64,000 nucleotides of DNA from Actinomyces naeslundii. GTDB taxonomy: Bacteria > Actinomycetota > Actinomycetes > Actinomycetales > Actinomycetaceae. Below the pieces are notes generated by a model. It saw only the letters and a program-made list of their open reading frames with translations, did no database searches and was not told the origin of the DNA. Within the stretch, counting starts at the first letter, position 1; each line of letters opens with the position of its first letter. The stretch covers positions 1 to 64,000 of the forward strand of contig NZ_MSRR01000006.1 of NCBI RefSeq assembly GCF_001956585.1, given 5' to 3'. The translations under genes and the position numbers were made by a program. This document shows positions 19,997 to 23,160 of the stretch, in pieces.

Positions 19997-21258
19997 AGGT
20001 CTACCTCCTGGTCATGGCCATCGCCACCGCGACCACCTACGTGGCCGTTCCGATCATCCGGCACATCGCCTTGGTGGGCAACGCGCTCACCCCCGTGCGG
20101 GCACGCGACGTCCACTCCACGCCCATCCCGCGCCTGGGCGGCGTGGCCATGTTCTTCGGCCTGTTCTCCGCGATCTCCGTGGCCTCCACGATCCCCTACC
20201 TCTCCGACGTCATCGACTCCAGCGCCTGGGCGGTGGTCCTGGGAGCGGGACTGGTGTGCCTGCTCGGCGTCGTCGATGACCTGTGGGAGCTGGACTGGAT
20301 GACCAAGCTCGCCGGCCAGATCCTCGCCGCCGGCGTCATGGCCTGGCAGGGCGTCCAGCTCCTCACCTTCCCCGTGGCGGGGCTGACGATCGGCTCCTCG
20401 CGCCTGTCCCTCATCTCCACCGTCATCGTCGTCGTGGCCGCCATCAACGCCGTCAACTTCGTCGACGGACTCGACGGGCTGGCGGCCGGCATCATCGGGA
20501 TCGGCTCGACCGCCTTCTTCATGTACACCTACGTCCTCACCCGCGCCACGAGCCCCGGCTCCTACAGCTCCCTGGCCGCCACGATCGTGGCCGCGCTCAT
20601 CGGCGTGTGCGTGGGCTTCCTGCCCCACAACTTCAACCCGGCCACCATCTTCATGGGCGACTCCGGGGCGATGCAGCTGGGGCTGGTCTCGGCGGCCTCC
20701 ACCATCATCGTCACCGGGCAGATCGACCCCGGCAGCTTCGACGGCTCGCGCGCCCTGCCCGCCTTCATGCCGATCCTCCTGCCGCTGGCGGTCCTCCTGC
20801 TGCCCCTGACCGACATGATCATGGCGATCGTGCGTCGGGCCAGGAAGGGTCTGAGTCCCACCCACCCCGACCGCATGCACATGCACCATCGGCTCCTGGC
20901 GGCTGGGCACTCCCACCGCCGCGCCGTGCTGGTGATGTACCTGTGGGCCGCCGTCGCCTCCTTCCCCGTCGCCGCGATGGCCTTCTTCCCCCTGCCCTGG
21001 GTGATGGTGGGGGCGGGCATCGCGGTCCTGCTCGCCTTCGTCGTCACCGTCGACCTCATGCCCGGGGTGCGCCACGCCCTGCACTCGATGCTGCACCGGC
21101 GCCAGGACCGCCAGGAGCAGCGGATCGTCATCTCCCGCAACGTCTCGGGAACCGGTGAGGTGACGCGCCCGGCCCAGGGGCAGGCGCCACAAGGAGCCGT
21201 CGTGTCGGCTGCTGTGTCAACGGCTCCGGCCTACCATCCCGAGGAGACGGACGCATGA
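19993..21258 (+). CDS. undecaprenyl-phosphate GlcNAc-1-phosphate transferase (WecA/TagO family)
   Basis: A 421-residue polytopic membrane enzyme of the MraY/WecA superfamily. It transfers a HexNAc-1-phosphate from UDP-sugar to undecaprenyl phosphate, the first lipid-linked step of teichoic acid, arabinogalactan-like or other wall glycan synthesis. About 11 hydrophobic segments are visible with the superfamily motifs TPIPRLGG, GVVDDLWELDW, NAVNFVDGLDGLAAG, FMGDSGAMQLG and the histidine motif PDRMHMHHRL. The C-terminal 60 residues are a soluble tail. It starts at a GTG overlapping tsaC and ends overlapping the next gene by 4 bases. Confidence 0.92.
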   Translation: MKVYLLVMAIATATTYVAVPIIRHIALVGNALTPVRARDVHSTPIPRLGGVAMFFGLFSAISVASTIPYLSDVIDSSAWAVVLGAGLVCLLGVVDDLWELDWMTKLAGQILAAGVMAWQGVQLLTFPVAGLTIGSSRLSLISTVIVVVAAINAVNFVDGLDGLAAGIIGIGSTAFFMYTYVLTRATSPGSYSSLAATIVAALIGVCVGFLPHNFNPATIFMGDSGAMQLGLVSAASTIIVTGQIDPGSFDGSRALPAFMPILLPLAVLLLPLTDMIMAIVRRARKGLSPTHPDRMHMHHRLLAAGHSHRRAVLVMYLWAAVASFPVAAMAFFPLPWVMVGAGIAVLLAFVVTVDLMPGVRHALHSMLHRRQDRQEQRIVISRNVSGTGEVTRPAQGQAPQGAVVSAAVSTAPAYHPEETDA

Positions 21259-21776
21259 GTACAGCACACGGCTCCGGCCCGATGTCGCAGCAACCTGCCG
21301 ACGAGCAGCCGGGACCGACCGGGGGGACCAGTCACAACACCGCCGTCCTGATCGACTCTGTTGCCCGGCTGCGTCGGATCCTGACGATTGCCACCGGGGT
21401 TCTGGTGGCACTTGAGCTCCTCTGGTGCGTAGGTGGCGGCATGACCGGAGGCGTGGCCCGCCCGACCGGGACCTTTCCGGTGGCCGCGGTGGCGACGGTG
21501 CTGCTCCTGGCCTCCACGTGGTGGGTTCTGGCCCGCATGGTGCGCTCCGGGATGGGACTCATGGCTGCCTGGATGGGCGGCGGTTACCTCGCGAGAATCT
21601 CCCTGCTGGCCCTGGCTCTCCTCGGCGGTCGGGTGATCGGGCTGGACATTCGAGTGATTGGGGTCTCACTCATCGTTGCTGTGCTGGTAAGCGTGTTCGC
21701 CGAGGTGACCGTCCTGGCGCGAGCACGAATCCTTGCTGTGGAGCCGATGAAGGGAGGGCCGACGGGCCGGTTCTGA
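21255..21776 (+). CDS. AtpI-like membrane protein upstream of ATP synthase
   Basis: A 173-residue protein with four hydrophobic segments after a polar N terminus of about 45 residues. Sequence similarity to AtpI (ATP synthase protein I) is too weak to assert from reading alone, but the position between the wecA-like gene and atpB, the four-helix layout and the length all fit that role, thought to help c-ring assembly or Mg2+ supply. It overlaps the wecA-like stop by 4 bases. About 170 non-coding bases separate it from atpB. Confidence 0.65.
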   Translation: MSTAHGSGPMSQQPADEQPGPTGGTSHNTAVLIDSVARLRRILTIATGVLVALELLWCVGGGMTGGVARPTGTFPVAAVATVLLLASTWWVLARMVRSGMGLMAAWMGGGYLARISLLALALLGGRVIGLDIRVIGVSLIVAVLVSVFAEVTVLARARILAVEPMKGGPTGRF

Positions 21777-21948
21777 CCGAGGCGTAGGTTCATCCTTGGG
21801 AGGCAGCAAGGACGATGAATCGGGATGCACCTGCTGATTTTGCTTCGTTGAACCATTCCTAGGCGCTAGCATTGCCAGTGGTTAGCAGGCCTGTTCAGGG
21901 CAGACATCAAGCCAGACTTCGAAGCGTGAGAGACATCGGGAGGATCTC

Positions 21949-22869
21949 CTGTCCATCAACACCGTCACCGAGAGCGACGCGGCAGTCGACGACGTCGCCG
22001 CGCCGCGGACGGCTGACGCCAAGCCGTTCGTCAAACCGCTGTGGTACTGGGTGCTCCTGGTTGTCCTGGTTGCGGTGATCGTGCTGACTGCGGTGCCCGC
22101 CTTCACTCAGCACCCTCACTCACCCGGCGTCGAGGACTTCTTCCCCGAAGCGCTCTTTGGCCAGGGTACGTTCCTGGAGTTCAACAGGCTCACCCTCGTC
22201 CGCGTCGTCATGGGGGTCGCCTTGTGCCTGACGGTGGGGGTGGCCGCCAGCCGGCTCAAGACCGTCCCCGGGCGCGGCCAGGCCGTGCTCGAGCTCATCG
22301 CCGACTTCGTGCGCAGCAATGTGGCCCTCATGCTTCTGGGCAATAAGAACGGACGCCGCTTCGCCCCCCTGCTGGGGACCCTCTTCCTGGGAGTGCTGGC
22401 CATGAACATCGCCGGCATCATCCCGGGACTCAACATCGCCGCCTCCTCGGTGGTGGCGGTGCCCCTGGTGTTCGCGGCCCTGACATACATCACCTTCATC
22501 GGTGCCGGAATCAGGGAGCAGGGAATCGGTCACTTCCTCGCCTCCCAGCTCCTGCCTCCGGGGCTGCCCAAGGTGATGTACCTGCTTATCACCCCCATCG
22601 AGTTCCTCTCGAACTTCATTGTTCGGCCGGTGACGCTCACCCTGCGTCTGCTGTGCAACATGGTCTCCGGGCACATGCTGCTCGCCATGACCTTCTTCGG
22701 GACCACCAGTCTGCTCCTGCACCTACAGGCGTCTTCGGCGGCAAGTTTCCTCACCGGCGCAGCCATGATCGCGGTGACCCTGTTCGAGGTCTTCGTCGCG
22801 GTCCTGCAGGCCTACATCTTCACCATCCTCAGCGCCGTCTATATCAAGCTCTCCATCGAGGCCCACTAG
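21949..22869 (+). CDS. atpB: ATP synthase Fo subunit a, probable CTG start
   Basis: The proton-channel subunit a: a multi-span protein with the essential arginine in LTLRLLCNMVSGH near residue 232 and the C-terminal helix ending YIKLSIEAH. In frame, no ATG, GTG or TTG occurs between the stop at 21883-21885 and a GTG at 22051. That GTG would begin inside the first membrane helix and remove the soluble N terminus. A CTG at 21949 lies 5 bases after GGGAGG and gives a 306-residue protein with a normal N terminus (LSINTVTESDAAV), so CTG is the preferred start. First gene of atpBEFHAGDC. Confidence 0.9.
   Translation: MSINTVTESDAAVDDVAAPRTADAKPFVKPLWYWVLLVVLVAVIVLTAVPAFTQHPHSPGVEDFFPEALFGQGTFLEFNRLTLVRVVMGVALCLTVGVAASRLKTVPGRGQAVLELIADFVRSNVALMLLGNKNGRRFAPLLGTLFLGVLAMNIAGIIPGLNIAASSVVAVPLVFAALTYITFIGAGIREQGIGHFLASQLLPPGLPKVMYLLITPIEFLSNFIVRPVTLTLRLLCNMVSGHMLLAMTFFGTTSLLLHLQASSAASFLTGAAMIAVTLFEVFVAVLQAYIFTILSAVYIKLSIEAH

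Positions 22870-22890: not shown

Positions 22891-23159
<269 letters not shown>

Positions 23160-23160
<1 letters not shown>

Follow-up and report, generated by a model that had tools for sequence, protein, structure and literature searches.

CUG initiates translation less than AUG or GUG does. It is considered to be hardly used by bacteria because its initiation complexes are unstable: in E. coli, 70S complexes formed on CUG in vitro are unstable and initiation with the wild-type initiator tRNA is inefficient (PMC11497404), which makes CUG use by an essential gene unexpected. Other noncanonical starts have been described, including ATT for infC and ATC for rnhC in Listeria (PMC13068326), and GTC for sigR in Streptomyces, where the codon is conserved across many species and was shown experimentally to be repressed by IF3 (PMC5472188). 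Here we describe atpB of Actinomyces naeslundii, the gene for F0F1 ATP synthase subunit a, which is predicted to start at CTG. It resembles infC, the gene for IF3 with its AUU start, in being a core gene with a fixed, rare and conserved start codon; its codon is however CUG, and infC autoregulates through IF3, whereas atpB gives no sign of such a loop. Like sigR, it is an actinobacterial gene in which a strong Shine-Dalgarno (SD) sequence precedes a noncanonical start that many species share, but the sigR start is limited to Streptomyces and proven at the bench, whereas the CTG of atpB spans several families and is known here from sequence alone. With the E. coli CUG complexes it shares the C-U codon-anticodon mismatch at the P site, and with other actinobacterial subunit a genes (PF00119/TIGR01131) the protein and the place in the operon. 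In the open-access literature searched, we found no report of a CUG start for bacterial atpB or of CTG starts in this group of actinobacteria; some of the genes may already be annotated with CTG.

The window analysed here is a 64,000-nucleotide stretch (positions 1 to 64,000, forward strand, of contig NZ_MSRR01000006.1), in which all features described below lie on the plus strand. atpB spans 21949-22869, comprising 306 codons and a TAG stop (22867-22869). Its product matches PF00119 over residues 84-300 (E 4.9e-50; 170.8 bits against a curated cut-off of 33.9) and TIGR01131 above that profile's cutoff, and its closest named relative is that of Actinomyces sp. oral taxon 170 F0386 (identity rounding to 100%), followed by A. 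oris. The next gene of the operon, starting at ATG, is atpE (subunit c; 22951-23160), identified by sequence and gene order. An ORF of 173 aa in the position of atpI (21255-21776) ends 172 bases before the CTG; no Pfam match was found for it, and it weakly matches NF053722, a Cg1360-family ATP-synthase-associated protein (E 0.052).

Direct reading of the sequence bore out two claims of the original prediction: the atpB frame contains no ATG, GTG or TTG from the in-frame TAG at 21883-21885, after which it stays open, to the GTG at 22051-22053, and the CTG at 21949-21951 sits 5 bases (ATCTC, 21944-21948) past a GGGAGG (21938-21943). An ORF listing restricted to ATG, GTG and TTG accordingly gave atpB only from 22051, as a protein of 272 aa, and gene callers with this restriction would cut subunit a short in a large number of genomes. 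SD strength was computed for every in-frame NTG as the energy of the duplex between its SD region and the 16S tail. The value for the window CTG was -10.3 kcal/mol, and energies of -10 kcal/mol or below precede just 0.14% of 3,664 CTG codons inside atpB genes; the best canonical candidate in the region reached only -3.0. Across the 452,507 bases examined of its own genome, atpB was alone among 262 composition-selected ORFs in having a strong SD and CTG ahead of the first canonical start, with coding-like sequence. The initiator tRNA gene was not found within the genome stretches examined.

Conservation among relatives argues for the same start. Aligning the 5' ends of Actinomyces atpB, as the original prediction had proposed, placed CTG at this codon in 19 oral-clade genomes out of 49 of the genus (group identity 68-100%), each with the SD at the same position and TCC following. 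The remaining Actinomyces of this set have a GTG (or ATG) start shortly past AGGAGG. One of the 19 (L015) reads CTG TCC ATG, and may use this ATG two codons past the CTG as its start. Within the 19 genomes, 3 of 22 invariant leucine columns are likewise all CTG, a background against which invariance of the start CTG is not significant. In an alignment of 12 close relatives, indels of 1 and 13 bases fall upstream of the SD, and after the CTG only one length, 6 bases, occurs; non-triplet indels confined to the region upstream of the SD fit a frame that is constrained only beyond the SD/CTG point. Substitutions by codon position in the segment following the CTG numbered 5/12/10 in the same relatives, with no excess at third positions, although this segment evolves too fast for such a test.

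The main competitor is translation from GTG 22051, 34 codons downstream of the CTG and the first canonical NTG in frame, with the open stretch ahead of it serving as a 5' leader. This would remove the N-terminal segment encoded at 21949-22050, which ends in KPLWYW, where the first hydrophobic stretch begins. The original prediction had held that such a start would remove the soluble N terminus and cut into the first membrane helix. Other Actinomyces a subunits (46-53% identity), however, lack the segment and are about as short as a product from 22051, so a broken truncated protein is by itself no proof. We nevertheless regard initiation at 22051 as very improbable, given that its codon has no SD and is GTA, GTC or GCG in relatives (L003, L013 and L014, respectively), while the preceding WYW residues are conserved and the stretch upstream shows triplet indels only, with a GC3 of 0.91. 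A different near-cognate codon such as ATC 21955, just two codons past the CTG, is scarcely credible: the position reads ACC or ACG, and once ATG, in close relatives, and the SD spacing would grow to 11. That a sequencing error or local mutation masks an ATG or GTG at 21949 can practically be dismissed; the original prediction had named such an error as what would overturn it, but no support for one was found, and independently assembled genomes, 19 of the genus and others from many further genera, read CTG at this place.

To place this start in a wider context, we searched 213 family, 129 order and 108 class genomes for atpB, and read start regions in 209. Starts, called from sequence, were CTG in 73 genes, GTG in 89, ATG in 24, TTG in 21 and unclear in 2. 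The CTG call for L263, a gene outside the clade described below, lay 60 codons upstream of the conserved core; it was judged spurious and scored as GTG, which leaves 72 CTG genes; in 51 of the 73 calls, no rival had even a moderate SD. Named loci were called CTG in 48 of 80 cases, distributed over Actinomycetaceae, Georgenia and relatives, Microbacteriaceae (Leifsonia, Clavibacter, Cryobacterium, Homoserinimonas and Microbacterium oleivorans), Cellulomonas phragmiteti and Sanguibacter hominis; individual examples are Actinomyces oris, A. johnsonii, A. bowdenii, Schaalia georgiae, Gleimia europaea and Georgenia satyanarayanai. The SD lies 4-6 bases from the codon in 69 of the 72 genes, and 35 of the 72 contain no ATG, GTG or TTG from the upstream stop to the CTG. 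In nine CTG genes from four other families (f8, f11, f13 and f19) the next canonical NTG sits 2-33 residues inside the conserved core, and in seven of these 25-33 residues into it.

The homologous codon is not always CTG. Schaalia-like relatives have CTG or GTG before TCC, or ATG, and TTG occurs elsewhere: in Schaalia odontolytica-like genomes AGGAGG and a short spacer lead into GTG-TCC, and in sister genomes into CTG-TCC, and Pseudoclavibacter and some Microbacterium have TTG at the codon where other Microbacteriaceae have CTG. Such exchange with GTG, TTG and ATG at one position supports the CTG being an initiator and not a leucine codon. It also makes atpB a natural CTG/GTG/TTG/ATG series of a single start, suited to studying start-codon strength and evolution.

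A FastTree phylogeny of 193 atpB core proteins placed all CTG genes inside one clade of 136 (local support 100), which includes Actinomycetaceae, Microbacteriaceae, Georgenia, Cellulomonas and others. After manual scoring, in which L015 was counted as ATG and four genes where CTG and a canonical NTG compete (L069, L071, L076 and L088) were left unscored, CTG was called for 70 of the 130 scored clade genes versus 0 of the 57 outside, all of which were called GTG, TTG or ATG in contrast to the CTG of the window. Within the clade, CTG and other starts are separated by 16 changes, as compared to an average of 43 and a minimum of 34 for shuffled labels. Parsimony assigned CTG to a fork holding 135 of the 136 clade genes, on a tree whose deep branches are weakly supported, which may differ from the species tree, and in which the direction of some start changes is ambiguous. 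The CTG start is thus very likely an old inherited feature, not confined to the family. A long branch (0.7 changes per column) separates the clade from other actinobacterial atpB, which suggests that the gene shifted or was transferred at the base of the clade.

We consider it close to certain that atpB is translated from CUG 21949, and see CUG as the ancestral, or almost ancestral, start of the Actinomycetales atpB clade. The original prediction of a CTG start is strongly supported by conservation in relatives, interchange with canonical starts, the strong SD, which is kept in clade relatives, and the lack of conservation of GTG 22051. In the proposed mechanism, GGGAGG would position the 30S subunit at the CUG, with which the initiator fMet-tRNA would pair via the second and third bases, as expected from established initiation biochemistry (and PMC11497404). 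The protein would then begin fMet-Ser-Ile-Asn-Thr, and within the clade this codon would have turned from CUG into GTG, TTG or ATG several times. That an essential membrane-protein gene keeps CUG across several families suggests that the codon serves these lineages well enough in vivo.

The persistence of CTG has two candidate explanations. ATP synthase requires its subunits a and c in very unequal amounts, and the original prediction proposed that a weak start limits subunit a relative to the c ring; this was not supported: the sequence comparisons gave no sign of lower expression, of selection of CTG over TTG or of a regulatory structure. Mere tolerance appears the more probable account: CTG would have arisen once or a few times from GTG or TTG in GC-rich genomes, where mutation favours C and the SD suffices. 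On the same tree, C/T changes number 5 at the start codon versus 4-5 at conserved leucine codons, and this turnover, like that of synonymous leucine codons, is as expected from tolerance in GC-rich genomes, while still compatible with selection. The roughly 16 changes between CTG and other starts within the clade also fit. Sister genera and some close relatives manage with GTG, TTG or ATG at this codon, which speaks against a selected CTG. Tolerance does not readily account for the retention of CTG in about half of a multi-family clade when a single base change yields a stronger start, nor for atpB being the only one of 262 ORFs in its own genome to show such a start. Alternatively, CTG could be under selection for weak initiation, with IF3 perhaps modulating it, so that subunit a stays near one copy for each c ring, a reading we hold to be rather doubtful. 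In its favour, initiation on CUG is poor in E. coli (PMC11497404), the conserved GTC start of Streptomyces sigR is under IF3 repression (PMC5472188), and the SDs of CTG starters are no stronger than those of other starters but slightly weaker (mean -9.1 vs -9.7 kcal/mol). No shared hairpin or accessibility difference was found between CTG and canonical-start genes; the closest clade can form GGAG-GAU-CUCC over the SD and the C of CUG, yet structure over the start did not set CTG and canonical groups apart. The fuller scenario, in which a CUG start fixed at the root of a large Actinomycetales clade has been maintained for its weak and possibly IF3-sensitive initiation, which would set the subunit a dose, seems to us a shade less likely again; if true, it would represent a translational control of stoichiometry in ATP synthase assembly conserved across families.

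The leader upstream of atpB contains two conserved elements. In the alignment of 12 relatives, a conserved block (TGCTTCGTTGAA...GGCGCTAGCAT, 21842-21876) includes a -10-like TAGCAT and is a possible promoter, judged by its sequence; a consensus promoter scan ahead of atpB returned no match. Closer to the gene, AAGCGTGAGAGACATCGGGAGGA (21920-21944) is near-invariant in the 12 close relatives while the remaining leader diverges, and this segment may hold more than the SD.

Several further observations concern the relatives themselves. Oral-clade atpB (L001-L019) displays up to 70% identity to Schaalia-like genomes, as compared to 46-53% to other Actinomyces (L020-L049). Judged by atpB sequences, the genus Actinomyces is not one group, which would reflect either an old transfer or a mixed genus. 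Two records, titled Xylanimonas cellulosilytica 352_XCEL (L123) and Sanguibacter keddieii 250_SKED (L126), have an atpB start region identical to that of Schaalia odontolytica (L121) and are probably misnamed. Finally, seven of the other Actinomyces (L020, L022, L023, L024, L027, L028 and L034) carry a CTG directly before their GTG start (CTG GTG ATC ACG or AGG), possibly a start relic or a second start.
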